Source: Ehretia macrophylla
Taxonomy: Eukaryota; Streptophyta; Magnoliopsida; Boraginales; Ehretiaceae
DNA: 64,000 nt
Assembly: GCA_037974665.1 (NCBI GenBank)
Contig: CM075781.1
Location: forward strand, 37,789,735-37,853,734
Direction of reading: 5' to 3'
Made by a program: the position numbers and the translations under genes. A model generated the notes under the pieces. That model was not told the DNA's origin, ran no database searches, and worked only from the letters and a program-made list of their open reading frames with translations. Numbering within the stretch: position 1 is the stretch's first letter; each line of letters begins with the position of its first letter. Of this stretch, positions 17,342 through 56,446 are shown piece after piece.

Positions 17342-17842
17342 TGTCGAGGTCAGGAATCTCACAATTGAGGTTGGACGGCTATATTTTCCAAGTTGAACTT
17401 TCAGGTTGGCCTTCGAGCTGAACTTTCAGGTTGGCCTCCGAGTTGAACTTTTAGGTCGGCCACTTAACCTGCACCAAGAAAGGGAAAGAAAATGCGGGAT
17501 GATGACCCGGATTTTTCTCTCGGACGAGCGAATGATTAGTATGTCCGAACTGGCAGGGTAGCTGAGTGCATTAATGACGAGTTACCTCTGGAATGAAGGG
17601 ATGGAGCTCTATTTATACTAAATTTAGACCTGACAGCATTTAATGCAGTGCAACTTTATGTCCCATCAAGACTTTATGTCCCATCAGAATAGATGACACC
17701 CAGGTCGGGGTTTTCCTAGGTCAGGGTGAGATTGGATCAGCATCCAGGTTGGGCATTAGCTGAACAGGTTGGCCTTGGCCTGGGTTGGACTTCCCTAGCT
17801 CGGGGTGGGCATCATACCTCAGCTCGGGGGTCCCTTTTGTCA
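17342..17842 (-). repeat. Element A, 3' LTR (501 bp)
   Basis: On the plus strand it starts TGTCGAGG and ends TTTTGTCA. It is 18 bp longer than its partner because a CTTTATGTCCCATCA word is doubled. The purine-rich tract of the minus strand (plus: ATCCCCCTCCCC) adjoins it at 17,843. Confidence 0.93.
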
Positions 17843-18036
17843 ATCCCCCTCCCCAAGTCGATATCGAAAGGGTAAGATCTGGATTTGGGAGTTGTTCCCG
17901 AGTTGGAGGTGCCCGACCCCGGTAAAGTGGGGGTGGCCACGTCAGCGGTGTATGCCCTTTAGATGGCTGACACGTCACCTGGCAGTTATGACAAGATGCG
18001 ACGTTTGGGAAACCCGAGGCAGCTATAGGAGCTGCC

Positions 18037-20620
18037 TATAAATAGGGCCTTGACATTCGAGATTCATTTCACACTTTGCTTACAAATTTTCAAGAGCTTT
18101 AGGTAGGCAACCAGGGTGGTCGGACAATTTTAGCTCGGAAAGTATTTTTCTCGGGACACTCAGCTCAGAATCGTTAGCTCGGGGCCAATTAAGTCGGGTC
18201 ACCTTCCACAGCTAAAGCCGTAGGTACGTCCTGACTCCTTTTAGTTATTCCTGCACATATTTTGATTTGTAAACAGGATGGGAAGGTCGGAATCGAAAGA
18301 TTCCCAAGCGATGGAGGTGAGGTCCTATGGTGGGGACGAGAGTCCGTCGAGCTCGGAATCCACCTCGGACAAAGGCCAAGGTGGCGACAGCACAGATGAA
18401 TCTCGAGGATCGGTTCGGCGATCTGAGCCAGGGGAGAGTGATGATGACTATCAAGTCATTGGGGTCAGGCAACTGCAAGAAGAAGCCGAGGCGGATCCTT
18501 TAGCCGACCTGGGAGACTTGGGAGATAGGGAAGATGATGAGCCGTTGAACCAGTTGGAGGGAGTTGAGATACGACATGAGTACTTAGTTGGAGACTCTAT
18601 GTCGGAACCGATTGAAGCAGTGCCGGTTAGAGCGGTTTGACCTCGGAGCTCAGCTACAGCCAGTGGTTCGTCGGCTCGGGGGAAGATGATAGAGGAGTTG
18701 TTTGCCTGCTGTAAGCGCGAGTGCCATTCTACCGTCGAGATGGCTAACGCCAGGCTAAGGGATTGGTCGGTGAATTGACACCAAAAGTTGAAGGTTCCAG
18801 GTCGGAATGAATTAGCCTGCTATCCTCCACTCGATCACTTCATTATCTATGACCTCGCCTTCAATGTCATCCGGCTTCTACTTCCTGACTTTATCGCCGG
18901 TATTTTGAATTACTTTGAGCTTAGCCCGGGTCAGATGTCACCAAATGGTTGGGCCGTAATAGTGCCATTTTATGTATTCTGCCTTGAGAGAAAAATAGAG
19001 CCGACCCTGCGTCGGTTCAGGCAGTTCTTTGTATGCAAGCCCAACCCGAAGCAGCCAGGGTGGTTTCATTTCGCAGCTCGGGCCAATAATTCCATATTCA
19101 CAAAGTGACATTTCTCCAACAACGGTTGGCACAACGACCACTATTGGGTTGAGCCGGCTGTGAACCCGGGGTGCAGAGTGGATTGGAATCCCTCCTTCAA
19201 GAAGAATGTGAACGACGACCCTAAGCTCTTAGAAGCAGAACTCGCCGAGGTTGGGGTACTGAGACTCAAGCTAGGTATGTTGATTGACATTAACAGCGTC
19301 CTCAGATGGGACAGAATCTGGAAATCAAAGTTATTCGAGAAAGAACCCGACCTGAGGAAAGAGCATCTCCATCTATTTCCCGAGCTTGAAGAGAATGCAG
19401 AGTCCGGCTCAGAAGAGGGTCAGTTCGCAGGATCAATGCCCAACCTCCTCGTCTCCTTGTCTATCGTTGTTCTTTTCAGTTTGCATTTGGTCATTTCTCA
19501 CCTCTCTTTTCTTTATTTTTTGCAGATATGACAGATACGGTAAAGCTCACGTATACTCAAAGGAGGAGAAAGACTGAGGCCAGTGGCGAAGTCTCAGCTC
19601 GATCCGGCTTGGGCTCCACCATCCCTCAAGGGCAGAGGCAGCGGCCCGGTAGCCAAGTGCGGTCGGTGCCGAGGTCTCTTCCAAGGCGACGTCGGGGTCT
19701 CCCCTGCCTAAAAGATCGAGCTCGAGGGTGGCGATCCCGGAGCGCTCAACGTACCGCCCTGAGAGTAAGAAACGGCCTAGGGCCGAATACTCCGGGAAAG
19801 GCAAGGCCGCGGAGGTGAGCTTTCCCAGCAAGGATTTTGTGGAGATAACCAAGGTTGCCTGCGACCCAAGTTGGCAATGGTCTCGACGGAGCAGCTCTCG
19901 CTCGACCTGAGGACGACCATAGTCACGATGAGGCATCTTTGACCGTGTTGATATGGTTATGTTTTCTTAGCTTGGCTGATCATTTTGCTATCTTTTGCAT
20001 AGGCCGAATCCCATATCATTTCAGCACCCAACTTCCTTGCCAGGGCCCAGTCTCATTGCGTCGAGCTCGAGCAGCGATACATCGATGCCCGAGCTGAGCT
20101 TGAGGCCCTGAGGGAGAAGGCCACCCAGAGACGCAAAGTGGACACATCGGAGATTGATTAGCTGGAAAGGAGCTCGAGGCGGAGAAGTCCTTGCGCGAGG
20201 CCGCGGCAAAGGACGCCGAGCGCTACAAGCTGGAGAGGCGCGAAGCCGAGACTAAGGCCTGGGAGCTGATAGATCGGGTCGGCCCTCAAGGGGAAAAGGC
20301 AGTGGAAGCCTTCAAGTCCAGTGAAGCGGCCGTGGACTGGTTGGCCACGAAAGGTAGGGCGATGGCTAAGTACGCCGAGCTGGAGTACTACTTTTGGGGC
20401 CAAGTCGCAGCTCAGGAGCGAGCGAAGACCTTTCTTCCCGCCTTCAAGAATGACTATATCGAAATATTAGAGGCTCCACCGTCGGAGTTATGGGACATTC
20501 CTGAGCTCTCAGCCGACCTGACGTCCAAAGCTCAGGAGGTGATCGAGTTTGTGAAGAAGGGTATGGATCAGGTCGGTAATGAAGCCGATGCTACCGCCTC
20601 CGCCGCTGCGCCTAAGTGAA
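18037..20620 (+). pseudogene. Element A, relic of the opposite-strand gene
   Basis: This region matches, along its length, the plus-strand gene of element B (47,344-49,876). It includes a TATA box (TATAAATAG at 18037-18045), the leader intron border just before the start codon at 18,278, the gypsy-associated central domain and the coiled-coil C-terminal part. It is broken in several places and should not be functional. Confidence 0.85.
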
Positions 20621-21379
20621 TTTTGTAAACTCGTCTGGGTTGGGCTCTTGTAATCTTGTCCAGGTCGGGATTTTGTAACTTTGAATTTTCAATTTAATGA
20701 AATAATTGTTTTGCGTTTTATTCGAGTTCGTACAAATGTACTTTTTCCTTCGCAAATTTTTCTCAAGTAAGTAGGGTCGGACCAATATAATGAACCTTTC
20801 AAACTTAATTTAAATGTAAGGAACCAAGTTGGATGTGATTAATGAATTTTCATCCTAATTCGAGCTGGTTAATTGGACAACTATTATCGTCGCCGACCTG
20901 GACTCATCAGTCTGATTTAAAATTGGTCAAACTAATGTTGACAAATGTTGAGTTCGAGTTTAAACCCAAACTAACGTACCAACCTGAAGCCGGATCATAC
21001 CGAGTTGGACCTTAATTCGAACTGGAAAAGCTAATCAAATTATTATCGATTATACCCGAGCTAGAACCTAGTCCGAGCTAGTTTGCTTAATCATTAGCTC
21101 ATAATTAAGTATGGCCACCGCATTAATCCGAGTTGGTAGTAGCTTAATAGCTGAGGCACTTGGGCCCGGGTCGGGCTTTGCACTGCTTTACAAAATACAT
21201 TGTATTGAGGTTGTACATGAAGTACTTGGGCTCGAGAGCCGATTACAAGCAATGCTTTTATAAGAGATTTTAGCTCGGGAGCCTTTACAAGAGGTTTAAG
21301 CTCGGGGGCTGTTTATGAAATATCCGGCTCGGGGTCCATTACAAGTGAATTTGGCTCGAGGGCCTTTACAAGAGATTTT

Positions 21380-24300
21380 GGCTCGAGGGCCTTAGACAAA
21401 AATACCGCTTCAAGTGTTCTGAGTGTCATGCATTCTTCAGTTGTTTCCCGTACTTGTCGTGGAGGTAGAAGGTTCCAAGTCGGACTTCTTTCACGACTTC
21501 GTACGGTCCTTCCCAGGTCGGGGAGAGCTTATTACTCGGGCGTGACAAAAAGATGGCCTTTCTGAGTACGAGGTCACCAACCTTAATAGGCTTAGACTTG
21601 ACCTATTAGGCAAAGGCTCTTTGCATGGCAGCTTTGCTGGCCAACATTCTAATTTGAGCTTTAGCTCGGAGCTCTTTAGTGAGGTCGAGCTCTTCATGGA
21701 TCAGGGCTCCGTTTATTCCTGGATCATGGTGGAGGGACCTACTGGTAGGAGACCCGATCTCCACTGGCAGTACCACTTGAGTATCGAAGGTCAGCTCAAA
21801 GGGAGATTCTCTCGTTGCCGAGCTGGTGGTAGTCCACTGAGCCCACAACACCTCGGGAAGAATTGATGCCCACTGGCCTTCCGCTTCTTCCAACTTGGTT
21901 TTCAGGCCCTGTAAAATGATTTGGTTAGTCCTTTCGACTTGGCCATTACTTTGAGGGTGAACAATAGATGAGAATCTAAGGTCGATTCCGATCTCAGCAC
22001 GTTTGTCTCGAAAGTATGCACTATCGAATTGCTTGCCGTGGTCGGTAATGATGACCTTCGGCACCCCAAATCGACAAATGATATTCTTCAATACAAAATC
22101 CCAAGCTGCCTTTTCTGTTATTCTAGCAACACCTTCAGCGTCGGGCCATTTGGTGAAGTAGTCTTCAGCTACGAAAGCATGCTTCTTTTGGCCAACACTA
22201 GTTGGCAATGGGCCAATGATATGTAGACCCCACTGATAGAATAGCCACGGGCTTATCATCACCGTGAGTTCCATTGCCGGTTTCCTCTGTACATTGGCGA
22301 ACCTTTGGCAGGTGTCACACTTTTTTACATACTCTTTGACATCTTATTCTAAGGTTGGCCAAAAATAGCCTTGGCTCAATGCCTTCCACGCCAGAGCCTT
22401 GCCACCCAAGTGGTTTCCACATACTCCTTCACGGATCTCTCGGAGTACATAGTTTTCCTCCTCGGGTCCGACACACTTTAAGAGAGGCCAAATGTAGGCT
22501 CTCTTGTAAAGTTGCCCAGTTATTATGACAAGCCTTGAGGCTTGTTTCATGAGTTTCTAAGCTGCATTTTCATTCTCCGGGGTCATCCTCCCTCCAAGTA
22601 GTCCAGGATTGGTTTGGTCCAATCTGGGCTTAAATTGAGCTCGATTACGACTAGCTCCCCAACAGGATCCTTGGTTCGGAGACTTCTTCTACACGGACTA
22701 GTGCGGGTTGGCTCTCGCTCAAGGCCAACATGGACAGAGCGTCAGCCTTCATATTCTTCTCCCTCAGGATTTGCTGCACCGTGAGCCTCTTGAGCCCTGA
22801 AGTCAAATCCTTAACTTTGTTGAGATAGGCCAGCATAGCATTGTCTTTAACTTCGAACTCTCCTGATATCTGACTAGCAACCAATTGAGAGTCGGTGTTC
22901 AGGTCAATTATTCATGCCCCGAGCTGAGCCGCAATTTTCAATCCCGCGACCACTGCTTCGTACTTAGCCTCATTGTTGGACGCCAGAAAGGCGAACTTGA
23001 GGGAGTATTGGTGCTCGTGTCGGGTCGGGTCGAGGATGACCACCCTGGCTCCACTTCCAGACTTCCCTGATGCCCCATCCACATAGACCTTCCACACATC
23101 CTCCGAGTTTTGTTCGGCTTGGGCAGTACATTCCACCACAAAATTCGTGATGGCTTGGCCTTTGATGGTTGTTCTGGGTTGGTAGGTGATGTCAAATTGA
23201 CTCAGCTCAACTGCCCATTTCAGCAGCCTACCCGACGCCTCTGGTTTGTGCATGATGGTCTTGAGTGGGGCATCCATCATGACCTTAATTGGATGAGCAT
23301 CAAAGTATGGCTTCAGCTTTCTTGCCGCCATGATGAGTGCGAGGGTTAGTTTTTCCAAGGAGGAATACCTCATCTTGGCCCCTTGTAAGGTTTTGCTGAC
23401 ATAATAGACCGGCTTCTGCTCCTTCCCTTCTTCGTAGAGTAGTGCTGCCGCCACTACTGTCCCTGAACATGCCAAGTATAGTACTAGTTCCTCCCCACCT
23501 CAGGCCGGGATAGCAACGGTAGCGAAGCTAGATATTTTTTCAGCTCTTGGAAGGCGTTCTGGCATTCTATAGTCCATTCAAAATTCTTAGGATTCCTCAA
23601 TATTTTGAACAGAGGAGCACACTTGTCGACCGACCTAGACATGAATCTGCTCAGTGCCGCAACCTTGCCCGCGAGCACCTGGACGTCTTTCACACATGTT
23701 GGCGGTGCTAGGTCAAGTATCGCCTGAACCTTCTCCGGGTTGGCTTCTATTCCACGGGCTGTGACCATGAAGCCCAGAAACTTTCTTGCCTTGACGTCGA
23801 ATGCATACTTTTTCGGGTTCAATTTTATCCCAAAGTGCTCCATTAAGGCGAAAGCTTTAGCCAGGTCGGCTACATGGTCTTCCGCCCTTTTGCTCTTGAC
23901 CAACATGTCATCTACATAGATCTTTATATTTCGGCCAATCTGATTTTTGAAAACCTTGTTCATCATCCGAGTGTAGGTAGCTCCAGCATTCTTGAGGGCA
24001 AAAGGCATGACCTCATAGTAGTAGAGACCTTTATGGGTGGTAAAGGCAGTCTTCTCTTTGTCTCCGGGACCCATAGTGATCTGGTTATGGCCTTTGAAGG
24101 CATCCATAAAAGAGAGTAGCTCAAACCCGGAGGTGGCATCCACCATTTGATTAATTCGAGGTAGGGGAAAGCAGTCCTTAGGGCAGCCTTTATTGAGGTC
24201 AGTAAAGTCAATACACAGTCTCCATCCACCTGAGGATTTGGTCACCAGTACCACGTTGGATAACCGGGTTGGGTATTGAATTTTCCTTATGTGTCTGGCG

Positions 24301-26660
24301 TCTACCAACTTATCCACCTCTTCTGCTATGATTTGTTGCTTATCATAATAGAAGTGTTTGCACTTCTGCTTTACCAGATAGTGATTTGGGTTGGCATTCA
24401 GGTGATGCTCAATCACACTCGGGTCAACTCCTATCATGTCAGAAGCAGACCATGCAAATATGTGTTCACTTTTCAGGAAAAATTGACTTATACCTTTTTT
24501 GAGGTCATCAGAGAGTTCACTTCCGAGCTTTGCTATCTTCGTCTCATCAGAGAGCTCCACCTCTTGAAGGTCTTTAGTCGGGCTCCCTCTCTTAGTATCC
24601 CTATTTTTCTCGGGCAGATCTGGTCCCCAACCAACCTGATATTTGGGGGAGGGAGAGAGTTTTCATAACATTCCCGAGCTGGGAGCTGGGCCCCGCAGAT
24701 GGTTACCGTGCCGCTTGGGGTCGGGAATTTCAGGGCCTGGTGGTAAGTTGAAGGAACGACCCTGAAATGGTTGAGCGCCACCTGACCTAAGATCCCATTG
24801 TAAGTGAAGTTGTAATCCATTACAATGAAGTTGGCCTGCATCGAAACCCGCTTGTCTCCGTCTTTCAGCTTTAGTCGGAGGTTGATAACTCCTTCAGCTC
24901 GGTAGGCATGCCCGGTTAATCCAGCTAAGGTGCCTCTCAATGGCTTGAGCCGGCTCCTGTCCAACCCCATTTGCTCAAATGCCTTCAAGAATAGGACTTC
25001 TGCCGAGCTCCCGGTGTCCACCATTAGCCTTTTCACGGTGAAGTTGGCTATTTCAGCGTTGATCACCAGTGGGTCGTCATGGAGCAATATCACACCCTCC
25101 AAGTCTTCTGAGGAGAAAGTGAGCTCCTCCATCTCCTGGACCGGGCCCCGCGTCAGCCCGTACTCCTTTCCAGCCTGAACATAACCCTTCCTGCCAGCCG
25201 AGGTTTCCCTACCCGACGCCAACCCTCCAGCGATGGTTTTAATCACAGCCAAACGTCCGCCTCTGGCTTGGCGTTTAGGTGGACTCCTCTCTCTATCCCT
25301 TTGATCTTGGCTCCGGGTCGATTGTTGATCTATGTACCTCCGGAGGTGACCTTGGGCTATCAGTGCTTCGAACTCCTGTTTCAAGTCTTTGCACTCATTG
25401 GTGGTATGGCCGTAGTCCATATGGTAGCGGCAATACTTGGTTCTCAGGTCGGCCTTTCATCCTCAGCACTGGAGGCAGGTGGTTATGGTGCTGGATCTCC
25501 ATCAGGATCTGCTCCTTTGTGGTGTTAAGGGGAGTGAACATAGTGAACCGGGGGTTTTGCTTCGGTTGCTTGCCTCGGTCGTTTTGAATTTTTCCTCTGG
25601 GTTGGGCTCGGGAGGTCTTTCCCTTCTTGCCGGTTTCCTTCTCCTTGTCGTCATCCCTCTTCGCCTGATGAATTTCTTCCGAGTGTATGTACCATTATGC
25701 TCGTACCATCAGCTCGGCTAAAGTATCCTCGGGGTCGATAGCCAGGGAGGATGTAAGGGGGCCCGACCTGAGTCCACTTTTGGTAGGCCATTAATGCCAT
25801 AGAGTCCTCCAGGTTAGGTATTCTGAGGGACTCTTTATTGAATTAGGTCGTGTAAGCCCTTAGACTTTCTCCTCTATGCTGCTTCACCAACATCAATGAT
25901 GAAATATGGCGGGTTGCACGTCGGCTTCCCGCGAAGCGGGACAAGAAAGCCGCAGCCAGTTGATGAAAACTTAAAATAGAGCCGGGACAAAGTTTTTGGA
26001 ACTAGTCCAAGGCATTGCCAACCAGGATGGTCAGGAATGTCTTCGTCTTCATCAGGTCGGTCATATCATGCGGAGTTATATGATGATCAAAGTTGAGCAG
26101 GTGACTGGTTGGGTCTCCATCCCTATTTTAGACTGCCAGGTTAGGCATCAGGTTACCGGTGGGCAATGGGACAGCAAGTACCTCGGGTGCAAGTGGGCTT
26201 ACACCAAGCTAGTTTATGACCTTAGCTATGGTAGCCGCAGTCTTGGCCTGCTCGGGGTTGGCATGGGCCACCCTTTTTTCTCTCGCCTCTTCGGGTCCCG
26301 CCATCGGCTCCAAGAAGCCCTCTTCGTCTTGCGCCCATTTTTGTCTCGGGGCTGGGATGCAGAATTGTGGATGCGTAGGCCTTGGCGTAGCTACTTGCGG
26401 AACTGGGGGTCCGCAGCTAGCCGGGCTACCTGCTCCTTGAGTTCCTCAAACATCCTGAGCATCATCTTCACCTCTGGTGATAGGTTGGAGTTGAGGTCTC
26501 CATCTGTGGATGGGTTGGTTTGTGAGGCTAAGTGTATACGTTGGCTCGTTCCAACATCGGTTTTGGTGGGGTCTTGGCTAGGTACCTACGTGGTTTCGAG
26601 GTCTCCATCCGGGTTGGGCGAGTCCTCTACCGGTGCGCTGTGACATCTAGTTTGTACCAT
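21380..26660 (-). pseudogene. Element A, gag-pol relic
   Basis: In minus-strand order the gag part lies at about 26.66-25.4 kb, the zinc-knuckle and protease part at 25.4-24.6 kb, reverse transcriptase at 24.5-23.6 kb, the two RNase H domains at 23.5-22.7 kb and integrase at 22.5-21.5 kb. Each part aligns with the intact-looking frame of element B. The frame is broken many times. Confidence 0.92.
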
Positions 26661-26726
26661 GATGGTTTCTCAATGAGTGGTGAGAAGAGTGATGGAAAGA
26701 ATTCCTTCCCACAGACGGCGCCAAAC

Positions 26727-27209
26727 TGTCGAGGTCAGAAATCTCACAGTTGAGGTTGGACGGCTACGCTTGTCAAGCTGAACTTTCAAGTTGGCCTCCG
26801 AGCTGAACTTTCAAGTTGGCCTCCGAGTTGAACTTTCAGGTCGGCCACTTAACCTGCACCAAGAAAGGGAAGGAAAAAGAGGGGTAATGACCCGAATTTT
26901 TTCATCGGGCGTGCGAATGATTAGTATGTCCGAGTTGGCAGGGTAGCTGAGTGCATTAATGACGAGTTACCTCCGGAATGAAGGGGTGGAGCTCTATTTA
27001 TACTAAATTCAGACTTGACAGCATTTAATGCAGTGCAACTTTATATCCCATCAGAACAGCTGGCACCCAGGTCGGGGTTTTTCTGGGTCGGGATGAGATT
27101 GAATCAGCATCCAGGTTGGGCATTAGCTGAACAGGCTGGCCTCGGCCCGGGTTGGACTTCCTCAACTCGGAATGGGTATCATACCTTAGCTCGAAAATCC
27201 TCCTCGTCA
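26727..27209 (-). repeat. Element A, 5' LTR (483 bp)
   Basis: Plus strand TGTCGAGG to CCTCGTCA. The primer-site complement (CCCACAGACGGCGCCA) lies immediately to its left. It carries the minus-strand TATA box seen on plus as CTATTTATACT near 26,994. Confidence 0.93.
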
Positions 27210-41547: not shown

Positions 41548-41550
41548 TTA

Positions 41551-41885
41551 GGGTATCCTCAATGGAGTCTTCAAATGCAAAAATTTTCTAATTTAGATAT
41601 TTTTAGAGACTCCAGTCTCTAAAAATAATACTATTCATAGCAAAAGTACGTGGGGTCTACCACTTTTGGCTTAAAAGATGCCAAAATAGAGACCCAATCT
41701 CCATTTTCTTCCACAAATTTGTTGAAAAAAATAGAGACTGAATCTCTATATTAGCATCTTTTAAGTTAAAAGTTGTGGACCCCACGTACTTTTGTCATGA
41801 ATAGTATTACTTTTAGAGACTGAAGTCTCTAAAAATACCAAAATTAAGAAAGTTTTGCATTTTAGAGACTCAATTGAAGATAACC
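41551..41885. mobile_element. Foldback MITE with TTA target, 335 bp
   Basis: Starts GGGTATCCTCAATGGAGTC and ends with its complement (CAATTGAAGATAACC). Nearly the whole element pairs with itself; GTACGTGGGGTC and its complement lie in opposite arms. Flanked by TTA at 41548-41550 and 41886-41888, so PIF/Harbinger is the likely class. Confidence 0.82.
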
Positions 41886-41888
41886 TTA

Positions 41889-46684: not shown

Positions 46685-47149
46685 TGTCGAGGTTGAAAAT
46701 CTCACAGTTAGATTCGGAAGCTGCTTTGGCCGAGCTGGACTCCTTCGATCCGACTCCGAGCTAAACTTTCCTGGTCGGCTGTAGGTCCTGCACAAGGAAG
46801 ACAAGGAAAAGGCGGGGTGACGACCCGGATTTTCCCCTCAGGCGCGCGAATGATTAATATGTCCGAGCTGGCAAAGTAGTTTAGAGCAATTAATAACGAG
46901 AGAGCTTAAATGAGGAGGGTTGAGCTCTATTTATACTAAGTTTAGGTCTGACAGCATTTAATGCGACGCAGCTTTATGTCCCATCAGTGCTTTATGTCCC
47001 ATCGGAACAGCTGGAACTGAGGTCGGGGTTAATGGGGTCGGGTCAGTCATCTGGGGTTGATCATTGGGCTGAGCGAGCTGCTGATGGAGCGCGGATTGAC
47101 CCCTCTGATCAGGTCGGCTAATTTAGCTCAGCTCGGGAACCCCTCGTCA
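46685..47149 (-). repeat. Element B, 3' LTR (465 bp)
   Basis: Plus strand TGTCGAGG to CCTCGTCA. It adjoins a minus-strand polypurine tract, seen on plus as AATT followed by ten C at 47150-47163. Confidence 0.96.
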
Positions 47150-47343
47150 ATTCCCCCCCCCCAGTCGAGATCGAGTGGGCGAGGGCTAGAGGGAGAAGCT
47201 AATCCCGAGCTGGAGGTGCTCAACCCGGATAGAGTAGGGATGGCCACGTCAGCAGTGCATGCCCAACGGATGGCTGCCACGTCACCTGGCGGTTCTGACG
47301 AGACGCGACGTTTGGTCTTCCCGAGGCGAATTTCACGGGCGCC

Positions 47344-47352
47344 TATAAATAG
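47344..47352 (+). promoter_or_regulatory. TATA box of the opposite-strand gene in element B
   Basis: TATAAATAG in the context GCCTATAAATAGGGCC, matched at 18037-18045 in element A in identical context. It lies about 230 bp before the start codon, outside the LTR, on the strand opposite to gag-pol. Confidence 0.75.
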
Positions 47353-47571
47353 GGCCACCTCCTCCGAGATTCACTGCATACTTCACTTTATATTTCTCGA
47401 GGAATTTAGGTCGGACGTAAGAGTGGTCGGATGCAACTAGCTCGGAAAGATTATTCTCGGGATTCTTCAGCTCGGACCAAAATAGTCGGCCGCACTCCGC
47501 AGTTCGAGAGCATTAGGTACGTCCCGACTCCCTTTAGTCATTCCTGTACATTTGTATTTGCTGTAGACAGG

Positions 47572-49876
47572 ATGGGGAGGTCGGAATCAGAAGATTCTCA
47601 GGCAATGGATGTAAGGTCTTACGGCGGAGATGAAAGTCCGCCGAGCTCGGCATCTACCTCGAACAGGATCCGTGGCGGAGAGAGCACCAGCTCGTCCTCA
47701 GGGCCGGCTCGGAGATCCAATCGCGAGGAGAGTGACGACGACTGCCAAGTTATTGGGGTTAGACTGGTGCGAGAAGAGGCAGAAGAGGACCCTATGGCCG
47801 ACCTGGGAGAATTCGATGCCGGGGAGGATGAGGAGCCGCTGAACCGACTGGAGGGCATCGAGATACCGCAAGAGTTCTTAGCCGGGGTGTCCGTCACCGA
47901 GCCGATCGAGGCTGTACCAGTCAGTGCTGTTCGACCTCGGAGCTCGGCTTCAGCCAGTGCTTCTTCAATTCGAGGGAAGAGGATTGAGCAGTTGTTTGCC
48001 TGCTGCAAGCGCGAGTGCCATTCTACAGTGCAGATGGCGAACGCAAGACTGAGGAACTGGTCGGTTGACTGGCATCACAAGTTGAAGGTTCCAGGTCGGC
48101 AAGAAGCGGCGTGTTACCCCCCAGCCAACCACTACACCATATATGATCTGGCCTTCGACGTCATCCAGCTCCCCCTCCCTGGTTTCATCGTTGGAATCCT
48201 GAACCATTTCGAGCTCAGCCCGGGTCAGATGTCACCGAACGGTTGGGCCATAATGGTGGCTTTCTACGTGTTCTGTTTGGAGAAGGGAGTGGAGCCGACC
48301 TTGCGTCGATTCAGGCATTTCTTTGTATGTAAGCCCAATCCGAAGCAACCGGGGTGGTTCCACTTCGCAGCTCGGGTCGGCCACTCCATATTCACCAAGT
48401 GGCACTCATCCAACAAGGGCTGGCATAATGATTACTATTGGGTGGAGTCGTCTGTGAATCCTGGATGTAGGTTGGACTGGCTCCCGAGCCTGAGGAAAAC
48501 CGTCAATGATGATCCTAAACTCTCGAAGGAGGAGCGTGGAGAAGTTGCAGTGCTCATGCCCGCGCCCGGGATGCTGATAAACATTGACAGTGTGCTGAAA
48601 TGGGAGCGAATATGGGATTCTAAGTTATTTGGTCGGGAGCCCGACCTCTCAAAGGATCATCCCCACCTGATTCTCGACCCGGAAGGGGATGACGGGGCCG
48701 GCTCGGAAGAGGGTCAGTTTGCAGGATTGGCGTCCGACCTCCCGTCCCGTCTTATTAACTTCGCTTTAGCTGGGTCTTCGATTCACTTTTGATTTCCTTT
48801 GCTCTTTACCTTTGCAGATATGGCGGATATGAGGAAGCTCGCGTACACCCAGGTGCGGTCAGGACCGGGCGGCACTGGACAAGGCCAGAGGCAACGCCAC
48901 AGCGGCCAAGGGCGTGAGGTCGGTCCCGAGGTCTCCTCAAAAGGGGCTTCGGGGTCCCCATTGCCGAAGAAATCTGGGTCGGGCGTAACGATCCCGGAGC
49001 GCTCCTCCCCCCGATCTGAGAACAGAAAGCGGCCTCGGCCCGGGCACTCTGGGAAGGGTAAGGGCACGGAGTTCAGCCCTCCCGACCAGCACATTATTGA
49101 GGCGTCCAAGGTCGACCGCGACCCCAAACTGGCGACGGTCCCAGCCGAGCCACTCTCGCTGGCCTTGAGGACGGCTATTGTTACGGTAAATCCTTAACCA
49201 TCTTATGTAAAGGTCGCATTCTTTAGCTCGGCTAATTGCTTTACCCTCTGCTGAACAGGCCGAATCTCACATCCTCTCTGCCCCCAGCTTCTTAATCAAG
49301 GCCCAAACTCACTGTGTTGAGCTCGAGCAACGGTATGTGGATGCCCGAGCCGAGCTTGAAACAGTGAGAGAGGAGGCTGCTCAGAGGCAGAGAGTTGACA
49401 CAGCGGAGGTCGAGCGCTTGAGGAAGGAGCTGGACCTGGAGAAGGGCCGTCGCGAAGCCGCGGCCAAGGACGTCGATCGCTATAAGCGAGAGAAACGGGA
49501 GTCAGAGGCAAAGTTCAAGGAGTTGGCGGAGCGGGTCGGCGTCCACGGGGAAAAGGCGGTGGAGGCCTTCAAAACCAGCGACGCGGCGGTGGACTGGTTG
49601 GCCACGGAAGGCGGGGCCATGGCAAAGTACGCGGAAATGGAGTTCTACTTCCGGGGTCAAGTTTCGGCTCGGGAGAGAGCGAAGACTTTCTTTCCACCCT
49701 CCAAGAACGACTACATCGAGATCTTGGAGGTCCCGCCGCCAGAATTCTGGGAGATCCCCGAGCTTCCCTCCGACCTGATATCCCAGGCCAAGGAGGTTTC
49801 TGAGTTTGTCCAGAAGGGCCTGGACCAGGTTGGGGATGAAGCTGAGGCCACCACCTCCGCTGTCGCGCCAAAATAG
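47572..49876 (+). CDS. Element B opposite-strand gene (Tat antisense protein)
   Basis: The start ATG at 47,572 follows directly on a predicted leader intron (47,517-47,570, GTACGTCC to GACAG). Coding continues to about 48.75 kb, then across an intron with acceptor at 48,817, then across a GT/AG intron at 49,196-49,258, to the stop at 49,876. Splicing is inferred from conserved borders in element A. The first part is acidic and Ser-rich. At about 48,070-48,450 lies a domain with FELSPGQMSPNGWAIMVAF and FFVCKPNPKQPGWFHF, which resembles the plant domain called putative gypsy-type transposon (Transposase_28). The last part (49,259-49,870) is a charged coiled coil. The protein's role in the Tat life cycle is not known. 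It converges on gag-pol without overlapping it. Confidence 0.75.
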
Positions 49877-50623
49877 AATTAGCAACGCCTCCCTAGTAGG
49901 GCTATTGTAATCTTGCCCGAGCTGGGCCTTTGTAATCATTTTCCGGTTTTTAATGAAAGATTTATTTTGGCTTTTTTTTGCGTTTCAATTGAGTTCGTAC
50001 ACGCGTACTTTCCTCTCCGCAAATTTTTTCTAAGTTAGTGGGGTCGGACCAATTTTAATGGACCATACAAACTTAGGAGTAATAACCCGAGCTGGACGCG
50101 ACTGATGCTTTAACATCCTAATCCGAGCTGGTATAATAGGGGCAACTCATAGTGGTTACCGATTCGAACTCGTCAGTCCGTTATAAAAATGGTCAAACTA
50201 ATGTCGACAAGTATTGAGCTCGAGTTTAGACCCAAGCTAATACACCGACCTGAGGCCGGAATGCACCGAGTTGGAACATAATCCGAACTGGCAAACTGAT
50301 CAAATTGTTATCAATTATACCCGAGCTGGAACTTAGTCCGAGCTGGTTTACTTGTCATTTGCTCGTGATTAAGCGTGGCCACCGCGTTAATCCGAGTTCG
50401 AGTAATCTTGTCGTTGTAGCATTTGCACCCGGGTCGGGCATTGCACTGGTTGGTGTACTTGTTCCCAAGTCGGGGATTGCACTAGTTTACAAGATTACAT
50501 TGTATTGAATTTGTACAAGTAATGTTTCGGCCCGGGGCCTTTACAAAATACTTTGGCTCGGGGCCGTTTACAAAATTTTACGGCTCGGGGCCGTTGACAA
50601 AATATTCCGGCTCGGGGCCGTTT
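49877..50623. repeat. Element B spacer between the two convergent genes
   Basis: Noncoding. It opens with AATGAA-type poly(A) signal sequence near 49,952 for the plus-strand gene and ends with four units of GGCTCGGGGCCGTTTACAAA type, about 27-30 bp each (50,525-50,630). Element A has the same arrangement with diverged units. Confidence 0.7.
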
Positions 50624-53600
50624 TTAGACAAAATACCGTTTCAAGTGTTCTGAATGCCATGCATTTTTTAACAGTTTTTCGTTCTTGTCTCGAAGGTAGA
50701 AGGTCCCGGGTCGGACTTCTTTTATGACCTCGTAGGGTCCCTCCCAGGTCGGGGAAAGCTTGTTAGTGGAGCGCGGCAAAAAGATGGCCTTCCTGAGTAC
50801 GAGGTCGCCGACCTTAATAGGCTTAGGCTTGACCTGCTTGGAAAAGGCTCTTTTCATTGCAGCTTTGCTGGCCAGCATTCTGATTTGAGCTTTAGCTCGG
50901 AGCTCTTCAGCGAGGTCGAGCTCTTCACGGATTCGTGCTCCGTTTATTTCTGGGTCATGGTGGAGGGTTCTACTGGTTGGAGACCCGATCTCCACTGGCA
51001 GCACGGCTTGAGTGCCGAAGGTCAGTTCGAAGGGCGATTCTCCCGTCGCCGAGCTGATATTGGTCCGCTGAGCCCACATCACTTCTGGGAGAATTGATGC
51101 CCATTGGCCCCCTGCTTCCTCCAGCTTGGTTTTCAGACCCTGCAAAATGATTTGGTTAGTTCTCTCAACTTGGCCATTACTTTGAGGGTGAGCAACAGAC
51201 GAGAATCTGAGGTCGATTCCAATCTCAGCACATTTGCCTCGAAAGTATGCACTGTCGAATTGCTTGCCGTGGTCGGTGACAATGACCTTTGGTACCCCAA
51301 ATCGGCATATGATATTTTTCCATACGAAATCCCAAGCTGCCTTTTCTGTTATTCTGGCAACACCTTCAGCCTCGGGCCATTTAGTGAAGTAGTCTACGGC
51401 CACGAAGGCGTGTTTCTTTTGGCCAAGACTGGCCGGCAAGGGGCCGATGATGTCTAGACCCCACTGATAGAATGGCCAAGGGCTTATCATCACTGTGAGG
51501 TCTACAGCAGGCTTCCGCTGCACGTTGGCGAACCTCTGGCAGGTGTCGCACTTCTTTACATACTCTTTGGCATCTTGCTCTAAGGTTGGCCAAAAATAGC
51601 CGTACCTTAACGCCTTCCGAGCCAGAGCTTTACCCCCCAAGTGGTTTCCACACACCCCTTCATGAATCTCCCGGAGTACATAGTTTCCTTCCTCGGGTGC
51701 AACGCATTTCAAAAGAGGCCAAGTGTAGGCTCTTTTGTAGAGCTGCCCGGCAATTATGACAAACCTTGAGGCCTGCTTCATGAGTTTCCGAGCAGCTTTT
51801 TCATCCTCCGGGGTCATACCCCCCTCCAAATAGTCCAGGATTGGTTTGGTCCAATCTGGATTTAAGTTGAGCTCGGCTACCGCTCGTATCCCCAACTGGA
51901 TACTAGGTTCAGATACTTCTTCCACGTGGACAAGGGTAGGTCGGCTTTCGCCCAAGGCTAGCCTGGATAAGGCGTCAGCCTTCATGTTCTCTTCCCTGGG
52001 AATCTGCTGTATCGTGAACCTTCTGAGTGTTGAGGTCAAATCCTTAACTCTGTTGAGGTAGGCTAGCATAGCACTGTCCTTGGCTTCGAACTCCCCAGAT
52101 ATCTGACTTGCAACCAACTGAGAATCGGTGCTTAGGTCGATTGTCTGTGCCCCGAGCTGAGCAGCAATTTTCAGCCCTGCAATCACCGCTTCATACTCTG
52201 CTTCATTGTTGGACGCCGAGAAGGCGAATTTGAGGGAGTACTGGTGCTCATGCCGGTTTGGGTCGAGGATGACCACCCCAGCTCCGCTCCCAGACTTCCC
52301 TGAGGCCCCATCCACATGGACCTTCCACACGTCCTCCGAGTCGTACTCTGCTCGGCCAGTGCACTCTACGACAAAGTCAGCAATGGCTTGGGCTTTGATG
52401 GCTGTCCTGGGCTGGTAGGTGATGTCGAATTGACTCAACTCAACTGCCCATTTCAGTAGCCTGCCCGACGCCTCTGGCTTGTGCATGATGGATTTGAGCG
52501 GAGCATCAGTCATGACTTTAATCGGATGAGCATCAAAGTAGGGTTTCAACTTTCTAGCCGCCGTGATGAGCGCGAGGGCGAGTTTTTCCAAGGAGGAGTA
52601 TCTCACCTCGGCTCCCTGCAAGGTTTTACTAACGTAGTAGACCGGCTTCTGCTCCTTGCCTTCTTCTCGGACTAGCGCCGCCGCCACCGCTGTTCCCGAG
52701 CATGCCAAGTATACTACCAGCTCCTCCCCCACCTCAGGTCGGGATAATAGAGGTGGCGAGGCTAAGTACCTTTTCAGCTCCTGGAAGGCGTTTTGGCATT
52801 CCTCAGTCCATTCAAAGTTCTTAGGGTTCCTCAATATTTTGAATAGGGGAGCGCACTTGTCAGCCGACCTGGACATGAATCTGCTCAGCGCCGCGACTTT
52901 CCCTGCCAACACCTGGACGTCCTTCACGCAGGTCGGGGGCACTAGGTCTAGTATCGCCTGGACTTTCTCCGGGTTGGCTTCTATTCCGCGGGCTGTTACC
53001 ATGAAGCCCAGGAACTTGCCTGCCTTGACGCCGAATGCGCACTTTTCCGGGTTCAATTTTATCCCAAAGTGCTCCATTACGGCGAAGGCCTCAGCCAGGT
53101 CGGTTACATGGTCTTCCGCCCTCCTGCTCTTGACCAACATGTCATCTACATAGATCTCCATATTCCGGCCAATCTGGTTCTTGAAGACCTTGTTCACCAT
53201 CCGAGTGTAGGTGGCTCCAGCATTCTTGAGGCCAAAAGGCATGACCTCATAGTAGTAGAGTCCTTTATCGGTGGTGAAGGCGGTCTTTTCTTTGTCCCCG
53301 GGAGCCATCTTGATTTGATTATAACCTTTGAAGGCATCCATGAAGGAGAGCAGCTCGAATCCGGAGGTGGCGTCCACCATTTGGTCAATCCGTGGCAGGG
53401 GGAAGCAATCCTTGGGGCAAGCTTTGTTGAGGTCGGTAAAATCAATACATAGTCTCCATCCACCAGAAGACTTCGTCACCAGCACCACATTGGACAGCCA
53501 AGTTGGGTATTGTATTTCCTTTATGTGGTCGGCGTCCACCAACTTGTCCACTTCTTCCGCTATGATTTGTTGCTTATCATAATGAAAGTGCCGACGCTTT

Positions 53601-55912
53601 TGTTTTACTGGATAGTGATTTGGGTCGGCATTCAGGTGATGCTCGATTACACTCGGGTCAATTCCTGTCATGTCAGAAGCAGACCAGGCAAATACATGCT
53701 CATTCTTTAAAAGGAATTGGCTTATACCTTTCTTGAGATTGGCAGATAGCTCGCACCCGATCTTTGCTCTCTTTGCTTCGTCAGAGAGCTCCACCTCCTG
53801 GAGGTCCTCAGCCGGGCTTCCCCTCTTAGCGTCTCTCTTTTCCTCGGGCAGATCCGGTCCCCAGCCGATTTGATATTTGGGTCGGAGTGAGTTTTCATAA
53901 CACTCCCGGGCTGAGAGCTGGGCTCCGCGAATGGTTGCTATCCCAGACGGGGTCGGGAACTTCAGGGCCTGGTGGTACGTTGAGGGGACAGCCCTGAAGT
54001 GATTAAGTGCCACCCGACCTAAGATCCCGTTGTAGGTGGAGCTACAATTCATTACAATGAAGTTGGCCTGCATCGACACCCACTTATCCCCATCCTCCAA
54101 CTTCAGCGGGAGGTTGATGACTCCTTCGGCCCGGTGGGCCTGCCCGCTGAAACCTGCTAAAGTACCACGCAATGGCCTGAGTCGGTTCCTGTCCAACCCC
54201 ATTTGCTCAAAAGCACTGAGGAACAAGACTTCTGCCGAGCTCCCGGTGTCCACCATCAGCCTTTTGACGGTGAAGTTGGCTATCTCTGCGCTGATCACCA
54301 GGGGGTCGTCATGAGGCAATATGACCCCCTCCAAGTCTTCTGAGGAAAAGGTGATCCCTTGCATCCCCGGGGCCGGTCCCTTCGTTGGTCCATATTCTCT
54401 CCCTGCGCGAACATAACCTTTTCTGCCTGCCGAGGTCTCACCCCCTGACGCTAGCCCTCCCGCTATGGTTTCAATCACAGCCAGACGTCCGCCCCCAACC
54501 TGGCGCCTGGGCGGACTCCTCTCCCTATCCCTTTGCTCCGGATTTCGGGTCGGCTGTTGATCTATATACCTCCGGAGGTGGCCTCGGGCAATCAGTGCCT
54601 CGATCTCCTGCTTCAAGTCTTTACACTCTTCGGTGGTATGGCCGTAGTCCATGTGGTAGCGGCAATATTTGGTCTTATTGCGCTTATCAGGCCGGCCTTT
54701 CATTCTCGTTGCCGGAGGCAGGTGGTTTTGGTGCTGGATCTCCATCAGGATCTGCTCCCTCGAGGTGTTGAGGGGAGTGAACATCGTGAACCGTGGGTTC
54801 GGCTTCGGCTGCTGGGGCTGCTTGCCTCGGTCATTCTGGGCTTTGGCCCCAGGTTGGGCTCGGGAGGCCTCTCCTTTCTTCCCAGCCTCCTTCTCCTTGT
54901 CATCATCCCTTTTCGCCTGGTGGATTTCCTCCGAGTGTATGTACCCTTCTGCTCGTACCATCAGCTCGGACACAGTATCCACAGGATCAATTGCTAAGGA
55001 AGACGTGAGTGGGCCCGACCTAAGCCCACTCTGGTAAGCCATCAGAGCCATGGAGTCCTCCAGGTTCGGAATTCGGAGGGACTCCTCGTTAAATCTGGCC
55101 GTGTAAGCCCTCAAGCTTTCCCCTCGATGCTGCTTCACCAACAGCAATGTTGAAGTATGACGAGTGGCGCGGCGGCTTCCCGCGAAGCGAGACAGGAATG
55201 CCTCAGCCAGCTGGTGGAAACTTGCAATTGAACCTGGACGAAGTTTTTGGAACCAATCCAAGGCATTGCCAACCAAGGTGGTCGGGAACGTCTTCGCCTT
55301 CATGAGATCCGGCATATCATGCAGAGTCATGTGGTGGTCAAAATTGAGCAGGTGGCTGGCTGGGTCTCCGTCTCCATTGTAAACGGCCAGGTTGGGCATG
55401 CGATTGCCGGTGGGTAGGGGCGTGGCCAATACCTCGGGAGAGAGTGGGCTTACACCGAGTTGGTTGATGACCTTAGCTATGGCAGCCGCGGTCTTTGCTT
55501 GCTCGGGGTCGGCTTGAACCGCCCTTTTGCCTCTCTCCGGGTCGGACCTTGGTGTTGGCTCGTAGAAGCCCTCCTCTTCCTGCGTCCGTTTTCGTCTAGA
55601 CTCCGGGATGTGGAACTGGGGGCGCGATGGCCGCGGCGCGGCCTCTTGCGGTGCCAGGGGGCCCTCAGCCAGCCGGGCCACCTGCTCCTTAAGTTCTTCG
55701 AACATCCTGAGCATCATCCTTATCTCCGGTGATAGGTTGGAGTTTGGGTCTCCTTCTGCTGCGGGGTTGGTTTGAGTGGCTAAGTGTATGCGTTGGCTCG
55801 TTCCAACGTCGGCTTGGGTTAGGTTTTGGCTGGGCGCCTGTGTGGCTTCGAGGTCCCCTTCCAGGTTGGGCGAATCCTCTGCCGGTATGTTGTGGCTTCT
55901 AGTTTGCACCAT
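50624..55912 (-). CDS. Element B gag-pol polyprotein, 1,762 residues
   Basis: One uninterrupted frame. Residues 185-335 are a Retrotrans_gag domain. A zinc knuckle-like CX2HX4HX4C lies at 417-430 (YCRYHMDYGHTTEEC). The aspartic protease has DTG at 555-557. Reverse transcriptase covers about 800-975 with YVDD at 921-924. RNase H 1 spans about 1060-1180, and a second, archaeal-type RNase H about 1195-1320 (acidic residues D1201, E1237, D1263). Integrase has the HHCC zinc finger (H1417, H1424, C1455, C1458) and D1487, D1547, E1583 with the D,D35E spacing. The product would make and cut virus-like particle proteins, copy the RNA and insert the DNA copy. Gag and pol share one frame, as is common in plant gypsy elements. 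Confidence 0.97.
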   Translation of the reverse strand: MVQTRSHNIPAEDSPNLEGDLEATQAPSQNLTQADVGTSQRIHLATQTNPAAEGDPNSNLSPEIRMMLRMFEELKEQVARLAEGPLAPQEAAPRPSRPQFHIPESRRKRTQEEEGFYEPTPRSDPERGKRAVQADPEQAKTAAAIAKVINQLGVSPLSPEVLATPLPTGNRMPNLAVYNGDGDPASHLLNFDHHMTLHDMPDLMKAKTFPTTLVGNALDWFQKLRPGSIASFHQLAEAFLSRFAGSRRATRHTSTLLLVKQHRGESLRAYTARFNEESLRIPNLEDSMALMAYQSGLRSGPLTSSLAIDPVDTVSELMVRAEGYIHSEEIHQAKRDDDKEKEAGKKGEASRAQPGAKAQNDRGKQPQQPKPNPRFTMFTPLNTSREQILMEIQHQNHLPPATRMKGRPDKRNKTKYCRYHMDYGHTTEECKDLKQEIEALIARGHLRRYIDQQPTRNPEQRDRERSPPRRQVGGGRLAVIETIAGGLASGGETSAGRKGYVRAGREYGPTKGPAPGMQGITFSSEDLEGVILPHDDPLVISAEIANFTVKRLMVDTGSSAEVLFLSAFEQMGLDRNRLRPLRGTLAGFSGQAHRAEGVINLPLKLEDGDKWVSMQANFIVMNCSSTYNGILGRVALNHFRAVPSTYHQALKFPTPSGIATIRGAQLSARECYENSLRPKYQIGWGPDLPEEKRDAKRGSPAEDLQEVELSDEAKRAKIGCELSANLKKGISQFLLKNEHVFAWSASDMTGIDPSVIEHHLNADPNHYPVKQKRRHFHYDKQQIIAEEVDKLVDADHIKEIQYPTWLSNVVLVTKSSGGWRLCIDFTDLNKACPKDCFPLPRIDQMVDATSGFELLSFMDAFKGYNQIKMAPGDKEKTAFTTDKGLYYYEVMPFGLKNAGATYTRMVNKVFKNQIGRNMEIYVDDMLVKSRRAEDHVTDLAEAFAVMEHFGIKLNPEKCAFGVKAGKFLGFMVTARGIEANPEKVQAILDLVPPTCVKDVQVLAGKVAALSRFMSRSADKCAPLFKILRNPKNFEWTEECQNAFQELKRYLASPPLLSRPEVGEELVVYLACSGTAVAAALVREEGKEQKPVYYVSKTLQGAEVRYSSLEKLALALITAARKLKPYFDAHPIKVMTDAPLKSIMHKPEASGRLLKWAVELSQFDITYQPRTAIKAQAIADFVVECTGRAEYDSEDVWKVHVDGASGKSGSGAGVVILDPNRHEHQYSLKFAFSASNNEAEYEAVIAGLKIAAQLGAQTIDLSTDSQLVASQISGEFEAKDSAMLAYLNRVKDLTSTLRRFTIQQIPREENMKADALSRLALGESRPTLVHVEEVSEPSIQLGIRAVAELNLNPDWTKPILDYLEGGMTPEDEKAARKLMKQASRFVIIAGQLYKRAYTWPLLKCVAPEEGNYVLREIHEGVCGNHLGGKALARKALRYGYFWPTLEQDAKEYVKKCDTCQRFANVQRKPAVDLTVMISPWPFYQWGLDIIGPLPASLGQKKHAFVAVDYFTKWPEAEGVARITEKAAWDFVWKNIICRFGVPKVIVTDHGKQFDSAYFRGKCAEIGIDLRFSSVAHPQSNGQVERTNQIILQGLKTKLEEAGGQWASILPEVMWAQRTNISSATGESPFELTFGTQAVLPVEIGSPTSRTLHHDPEINGARIREELDLAEELRAKAQIRMLASKAAMKRAFSKQVKPKPIKVGDLVLRKAIFLPRSTNKLSPTWEGPYEVIKEVRPGTFYLRDKNEKLLKNAWHSEHLKRYFV

Positions 55913-55959
55913 AATGGCTTCTCAATGAGTGGTGAAGAGAGTTATAGAAGAACTCGTCG

Positions 55960-55981
55960 TTTCCCACAGACGGCGCCAAAC
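55960..55981 (-). other. Element B primer binding site
   Basis: Just inside the 5' LTR the minus strand reads TTTGGCGCCGTCTGTGGG. The same site sits beside element A's 5' LTR. Its first nine bases (TGGCGCCGT) fit a tRNA-Asp 3' end; the rest does not fit the tRNAs I know well. Confidence 0.75.
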
Positions 55982-56446
55982 TGTCGAGGTTGAAAATCTC
56001 ACAGTTAGATTCGGAAGCTGCTTTGGCCGAGCTGGACTCCTTCGATCCGACTCCGAGCTAAACTTTCCTGGTCGGCTGTAGGTCCTGCACAAGGAAGACA
56101 AGGAAAAGGCGGGGTGACGACCCGGATTTTCCCCTCAGGCGCGCGAATGATTAATATGTCCGAGCTGGCAAAGTAGTTTAGAGCAATTAATAACGAGAGA
56201 GCTTAAATGAGGAGGGTTGAGCTCTATTTATACTAAGTTTAGGTCTGACAGCATTTAATGCGACGCAGCTTTATGTCCCATCAGTGCTTTATGTCCCATC
56301 GGAACAGCTGGAACTGAGGTCGGGGTTAATGGGGTCGGGTCAGTCATCTGGGGTTGATCATTGGGCTGAGCGAGCTGCTGATGGAGCGCGGATTGACCCC
56401 TCTGATCAGGTCGGCTAATTTAGCTCAGCTCGGGAACCCCTCGTCA
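55982..56446 (-). repeat. Element B, 5' LTR (465 bp)
   Basis: Reads identical to 46685-47149. The minus-strand TATA box TATAAATAG, plus CTATTTATA at 56224-56232, should drive gag-pol. Confidence 0.96.

Follow-up and report, generated by a model that had tools for sequence, protein, structure and literature searches.

What does the plus-strand reading frame opposite gag-pol encode in two retrotransposons of Ehretia macrophylla, and is it a gene? The window analyzed is a stretch of 64,000 nucleotides of contig CM075781.1, from a genome of 1.58 Gb in 20 contigs, and it holds two related long terminal repeat (LTR) retrotransposons, element A and its older relative, element B. A preliminary description of the window had proposed that both carry a selected antisense gene with its own promoter, a leader intron ending directly before the ATG, a gypsy-associated domain, a further intron downstream and a coiled-coil end. 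The reading we favor, with a probability of roughly 0.6, is a plus-strand gene of three exons and two introns, antisense to gag-pol, that would give a spliced transcript and encode an accessory nuclear regulator. The leader segment is most likely a conserved signal instead of an intron.

Selection and probable splicing of the antisense gene

The gene is under selection at the protein level, a conclusion strongly supported by comparing A with B and with copies elsewhere in the genome. Between A and B, the Nei-Gojobori ratio of nonsynonymous to synonymous substitution (dN/dS) was 0.092 in exon 1, 0.258 in exon 2 and 0.136 in exon 3, as against 0.103 for gag-pol (0.06–0.15 in its parts), so that exons 1 and 3 are constrained to about the same degree as gag-pol and exon 2 less so. 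The A/B differences at codon positions 1, 2 and 3 were 0.155, 0.158 and 0.497 in exon 1, 0.322, 0.197 and 0.405 in exon 2, and 0.205, 0.117 and 0.461 in exon 3, and those of the two introns were 0.46 and 0.40 (these differences were taken with borders no more than a few bases away from those of Table 1). Comparison of synonymous and nonsynonymous change among family copies, the check that the preliminary description had proposed, likewise pointed to constraint and away from neutrality: in the 48 other copies with an ungapped match to exon 1 of A, dN/dS was 0.07–0.33, mostly 0.09–0.17. Because selection is about equal to that on gag-pol, the protein may well be needed by elements that spread.

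Copies were collected by two genome searches whose totals are lower bounds: a DNA search for A-like copies, in which 40 of 2,353 candidates were scored, all 97–100% identical in the query, and a search with the Pfam family PF04195 (Transposase_28), in which 150 of 3,551 candidates were scored, all above the cut-off. Eighty gene loci were analyzed: 30 A-like loci (A itself being L001) and, from the PF04195 search, the 30 best loci plus 20 further places. An alignment of 32 sequences (A, B and 30 PF04195 loci) was grouped by us into two subfamilies of 17 and 15 sequences, and a larger A-subfamily set comprised 58 sequences, namely 57 loci and B. A PF00078 search returned at least 150 reverse transcriptase places in the genome, a set too incomplete for pairing with the Transposase_28 loci. 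Fifteen of the 57 A-subfamily loci end before the gene does; of the 42 left to check (A counted as L001), 27 have kept the start codon, open frames throughout and GT-AG borders at both introns, and the other 15 were broken by stops, frameshifts or border mutations, with the caveat that 19 of the 20 further PF04195 places had been chosen for open frames of at least 433 aa, so that intactness counts including them are biased. Thus dN/dS near 0.1, a start and splice borders that are kept, and many intact copies all bear out the earlier proposal of a selected gene. The copy in B is decayed, with three stops in exon 1, one in exon 3 and a mutated donor in the last intron.

Several side observations concern the history of these copies. 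Twelve of them (L008, L016, L021–L024, L027–L030, L074 and L077) are near A in exon 1 (difference 0.01–0.04) and are 0.16–0.18 off A in the second intron and 0.05–0.07 in exon 3, as though each were a mosaic of two lineages that template switching had fused somewhere between the introns. L005 (G000:C4 near 35,271,933) and L004 (35,275,302) are near-identical gene copies 3.4 kb apart on opposite strands, a spacing too small for two complete adjacent elements. The A/B synonymous divergence is higher in the antisense gene (1.0–1.8; 47,572–49,876) than in gag-pol (0.79; 50,624–55,912); either recombination gave the antisense module a deeper ancestry, or its mutation rate differs.

Two other accounts of the open frame were weighed against protein-level selection. 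That the frame is a chance shadow of some other constraint on the sense strand could draw on the minus-strand open reading frames (ORFs) of 129 and 145 aa that overlap the gene, but no longer minus-strand frame over the gene was seen in A, the three minus frames across exon 1 of A hold 9, 10 and 16 stops, and exon 1 read in the other two forward frames gave A/B dN/dS values of 1.67 and 1.19; this account can be given almost no weight. The antisense transcript might instead act as RNA, pairing with genomic RNA in small-RNA silencing or copy-number control, with the frame incidental. The antisense arrangement would indeed give double-stranded RNA, and such a role is raised in a review (PMC7264820), but purifying selection at the amino-acid level, conservation of the frame and free divergence of the introns are not expected of a purely RNA-based role, which we regard as quite improbable. 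RNA and protein functions could also coexist.

The two introns downstream of the start are supported by several kinds of comparison. In the 32-sequence alignment the first has GT in 31 sequences and AG in 27, and the second has both GT and AG in 29; in the 58 A-subfamily sequences, the corresponding counts are 56 and 53 for the first, and 56 and 57 for the second. All 58 retain sequence at both introns (the first donor of L079 was unaligned and elsewhere read as GC). Among 17 divergent A-subfamily copies, whose third codon positions differ from those of A by 0.28–0.50, all but L066 show a similar degree of change inside the introns (0.26–0.61); L066 has intron differences of 0.12 and 0.17. In-frame read-through past the first donor would add 27 aa in 31 of 42 copies, mostly near relatives, and 19–174 aa in the rest; because the read-through ends are scattered in divergent copies, the intron spacer is probably not kept as coding sequence. 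Both segments thus combine GT-AG borders, apparently neutral divergence and a frame that removal would restore. The preliminary description had placed the downstream intron at 49,196–49,258, with the correct acceptor and a donor 10 nt off (49,186 being correct), and had overlooked the longer intron at 48,713–48,817.

A third family (L067–L073), 32–39% identical to exon 1 of A where aligned, suggests that this layout is not confined to the two subfamilies. After its exon 1 of 386 codons plus 1 nt come an intron of 74 nt in phase 1, an exon of 602 nt, an intron of 80–93 nt in phase 0 and a last exon of 191 aa, so that intron order and phases (1, 0) equal those of A; this layout was parsed whole in two of the seven copies (L067 and L068) and in its first part in L073, whereas the fixed motifs used did not parse the other four or a decayed relative, L080. 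A pol frame lies downstream on the opposite strand in L067, and a pol end in L068, and the third family is therefore antisense too. From their order, their phase and the homologous exon 1, we infer that both introns are old.

Three points weigh against the reading as a spliced protein gene. The AG of the first intron is absent from 5 of the 32 aligned sequences and each border of the second from 3, losses that we take to reflect decay of dead copies. A search for intron-less processed copies with a first-junction pattern gave no exact match and five one-mismatch matches, about three being expected by chance. Exons 2 and 3 of A had no significant match in the third family (L067), and homology is therefore shown for exon 1 only.

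Table 1. Coordinates in the window of the antisense gene model and of elements A and B (TSD, target-site duplication)
Feature	Position	Strand	Remarks
TATA box CTATAAATAG of antisense gene	47343..47352	+	exact motif in A-like and PF04195 loci
Conserved 5' leader box TTAGGTACGTCCCGACTCCCTTTAG	47513..47537	+	contains the previously proposed leader-intron donor
Spacer, box to ATG	47538..47571	+	kept in A subfamily, far less in second subfamily
Exon 1	47572..48712	+	380 codons + 1 nt; Transposase_28 (PF04195) at aa 198–254
First intron	48713..48817	+	105 nt, phase 1, GT-AG
Exon 2	48818..49185	+	conserved ATG 48,820 two bases in; basic RKRPR cluster in A
Second intron	49186..49258	+	73 nt, phase 0, GT-AG
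Exon 3	49259..49876	+	205 codons + stop; Glu/Lys/Arg-rich, possibly coiled coil
Decayed antisense gene of B	18036..20620	+	from TATA box to approximate end of exon 3
Element A	46685..56446		gag-pol on minus strand; TSD GTTAC (5 bp)
3' LTR of element A	46685..47149	-	TSD GTTAC outside
gag-pol of element A	50624..55912	-	single open frame, 1762 aa, ORF 55,912–50,624
5' LTR of element A	55982..56446	-
Element B, older relative of A	17342..27209	-	TSD GAAAT

The leader box and a possible second start

The preliminary description had a leader intron at 47,517–47,570, spliced just before the ATG. A and B do both carry GT at 47,517 and AG at 47,569, the donor sequence is AG/GTACGT (slash at the border), and within the A subfamily GT is found in 58 of 58 sequences and AG in 57. 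Plant introns need about 70 nt, however, and the segment, at 54 nt, is below their normal length. It also changes more slowly than introns or third codon positions: differences from A in the 17 divergent A-subfamily copies are 0.00–0.16 for the box part and 0.06–0.28 for the spacer, compared with 0.26–0.61 for the introns proper in all but L066. The leader upstream of the box differs by 0.18–0.41 in the same copies, so that it too is often slower than the introns; in the near copy L017, the box difference is 0.20. In the second subfamily, 13 of 15 copies keep the leader, with identity to A of 0.31–0.43 upstream of the box and 0.58–0.93 within it; the box is thus kept, whereas the acceptor AG is present in only two of the 13, both of which have lost the ATG, and is absent from 11. 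Over all aligned sequences, the AG occurs in 18 of 32. Hence the borders are not both conserved and the interior does not diverge freely, which makes a very short intron unlikely and leaves the earlier proposal without its acceptor in most of the second subfamily. Since the leader is more conserved than the introns and its acceptor is so often missing there, the box is most likely a cis-acting signal.

The box TTAGGTACGTCCCGACTCCCTTTAG is specific to these elements within the window, where a search allowing up to three mismatches gave two matches, one per element, and none in 100 shuffles. Across the genome, counted inside or outside such elements alike, its 24-nt core has 1,089 exact copies and, read backwards, none. 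In the third family, GTACC stands about 60 nt before the ATG in all seven copies (GGTACC in six), and no AG immediately precedes the ATG. A hairpin of the box segment CCGACTCCC with GGGAGGTCGG after the ATG was considered and rejected: RNAalifold on 30 sequences gave a covariation of +0.31, and the changes were mostly one-sided or pair-breaking.

On which strand such a signal would be read is a separate matter. The box might serve the sense genomic RNA, for instance in its export, its packaging or the priming of the plus strand, and its place in the antisense leader would then be a coincidence, a reading that suits a noncoding, strongly conserved sequence present once per element in the window and near the 3' LTR. 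Its near-constant place immediately before the antisense ATG speaks against coincidence, and we consider a sense-strand signal possible but rather unlikely, although the box evidence itself fits either strand alike. A different alternative makes the box a true donor paired with the acceptor at 48,817, so that exon 1 would be skipped, translation would start at the ATG at 48,820, and each gene would encode both a long protein with Transposase_28 and a short protein of about 327 aa with the basic region and helical end only, which could be partner or antagonist of the long one. Supporting this possibility, both subfamilies retain the box donor but not the AG close to it. In addition, 29 of 32 sequences have the ATG at 48,820, two bases past the first-intron acceptor, whereas the six codons after this Met have between-subfamily identities of 0.00–0.20 (0.72 and 0.57 for the next two). 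On the other hand, the Met ranks only 20th among 122 exon-2 codons in identity between the subfamilies, and exon 2 of the third family does not begin with an ATG, though one is found at the start of its exon 3. A second start is accordingly doubtful, and a conserved cis-acting signal remains our preferred reading of the box.

Proposed promoter and product, and known antisense genes

A TATA box stands in the same context (CCTATAAATAGGGCC) at 47,343 in A and at 18,036 in B, as the preliminary description had reported, and the exact motif recurs in 30 of 30 A-like loci (A included) and in 22 of 30 PF04195 loci; six of the seven third-family copies also have a TATA box. This conserved box is the single feature that speaks for the gene having its own promoter. 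It lies about 190 bp from the 3' LTR, on the inner side; RNA polymerase II would start just past it, and the gene would read from there towards pol. Two splicing events would then yield an mRNA for a 708-aa protein with the Transposase_28 domain, a basic region and a helical end that may form a coiled coil. The introns would survive transposition because the RNA that is reverse-transcribed is the other strand, on which the splice signals would be unreadable.

The Transposase_28 match in A's plus-strand gene (PF04195, E 2.4e-11) corresponds to the gypsy-associated domain proposed earlier for the strand opposite gag-pol. The exon-1 frame of A is open upstream to an ATG at 47,431; since that ATG is absent from B, the conserved ATG at 47,572 was taken as the start. 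Pfam recognized no family in exon 2 alone, a TnsD match of exon 3 alone (E 0.1) was below the cut-off and was disregarded, solved structures gave no match to exon 1 at E up to 1, and one scan of viral contigs for relatives of the gene gave none. The sequence RKRPR is present in exon 2 of the four A-subfamily rows shown, and KKRPR in one of four second-subfamily rows. Support for the proposed coiled-coil end is weak, since 45 of 1000 shuffles did as well on a crude heptad score. Our best guess, by analogy, is that the protein would act in the nucleus as an element-encoded accessory regulator that binds element DNA or chromatin and might control element transcription, import or integration. This guess rests on the basic cluster, the nuclear location of the Grande product and the DNA binding predicted for TRP28.

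The kind of gene is already known, and the exon–intron model is what is added here. The maize Grande gene23 was reportedly studied by Gomez-Orte and colleagues in 2013. It too is an accessory gene on the antisense strand of a Ty3/gypsy element, placed between pol and the 3' LTR; its expression and location were measured, whereas the gene of A is inferred from comparison of sequences. According to a review, gene23 is transcribed from its own promoter and encodes a nuclear protein, and study of antisense and spliced transcripts is called for (PMC7264820). In a survey of Retand elements, antisense TRP28 (PF04195) ORFs occurred in 97% of recent clusters, with function unknown and DNA binding predicted (Vicient 2025, PMC11963269). 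They share with the gene of A an orientation opposite to gag-pol, a place between pol and the 3' LTR, and the Transposase_28 domain. Antisense frames in Grande and Retand were thus on record, as the preliminary description had noted (PMC7264820, PMC11963269). The survey worked with ORF Finder output of 600 bp or more, and the word intron is absent from its main text; here, by contrast, such ORFs would be exons of one two-intron gene preceded by a conserved leader box (PMC11963269). HBZ of the human T-cell leukemia virus and related retroviral antisense genes, described in the same paper (PMC11963269), resemble the gene of A in being antisense and in the nuclear protein that they encode, an analogy of working only.

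Plant LTR retrotransposons generally lack introns, according to another review, which names Ogre and EVADE as exceptions (PMC12786077). Ogre, which has spliced transcripts, is like A a Tat-group element with an intron (PMC6317226), but the introns proposed for A are on the antisense strand. A direct-RNA study of sunflower describes spliced retrotransposon transcripts, and the word antisense does not appear in its text (PMC7730604). Searches of the open-access literature, which leaves out most subscription journals and the main Grande paper, turned up no account of introns in antisense TRP28 genes. Little has been written on the exon structure of such antisense genes or on a conserved tag ahead of their start codon. 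The two-intron model provides exact junctions to seek in existing RNA data; these would be a strand-specific mark of antisense expression, as they cannot arise from genomic RNA. By the same model, ORFs that have been listed separately may belong together as exons of a single gene. The 24-nt box offers a ready target for a test of regulation.

Elements A and B

Both elements are bounded by TSDs, so that two separate Tat elements are present, as originally described; they are 77% identical across 9.7 kb. On sequence features, A and B are Tat/Retand-type LTR retrotransposons with a plus-strand antisense gene. The gag-pol frame of A encodes gag, protease (a weak match), reverse transcriptase, RNase H, a second RNase H and integrase, the second RNase H (RVT_3, aa 1200–1318) lying between RT_RNaseH (1063–1162) and Integrase_H2C2 (1410–1461). 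An additional RNase H between RNase H and integrase marks Ogre and Retand elements (PMC6317226), and A thus has this feature of the Retand clade of Tat (Ty3/gypsy), together with the antisense Transposase_28 ORF between pol and 3' LTR. Its LTR of 465 bp and the approximately 3.5 kb from the pol stop (50,624) to the LTR end (47,149) fall within the Retand ranges of 315–1,194 bp and 2,933–6,566 bp given in the survey (PMC11963269).

The LTR pair of A differs at 1 of 466 aligned sites (Kimura two-parameter distance, K2P, 0.002), and that of B, with LTR ends roughly set, at 52 of 465 (K2P ~0.125); B is therefore far older than A, in line with the very different ages proposed at the outset. At a rate of 1.3e-8 per site and year, these distances would correspond to about 0.1 million years for A and about 5 million years for B. 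The differences between the LTRs of B (17,342 and 26,727) comprise 46 transitions and 6 transversions, a strong bias of the kind expected from decay of methylated cytosines. Elsewhere in the window, a 337-bp stretch (41,550–41,886) matches its own reverse complement at 85% and may be a long palindrome or a fold-back element.
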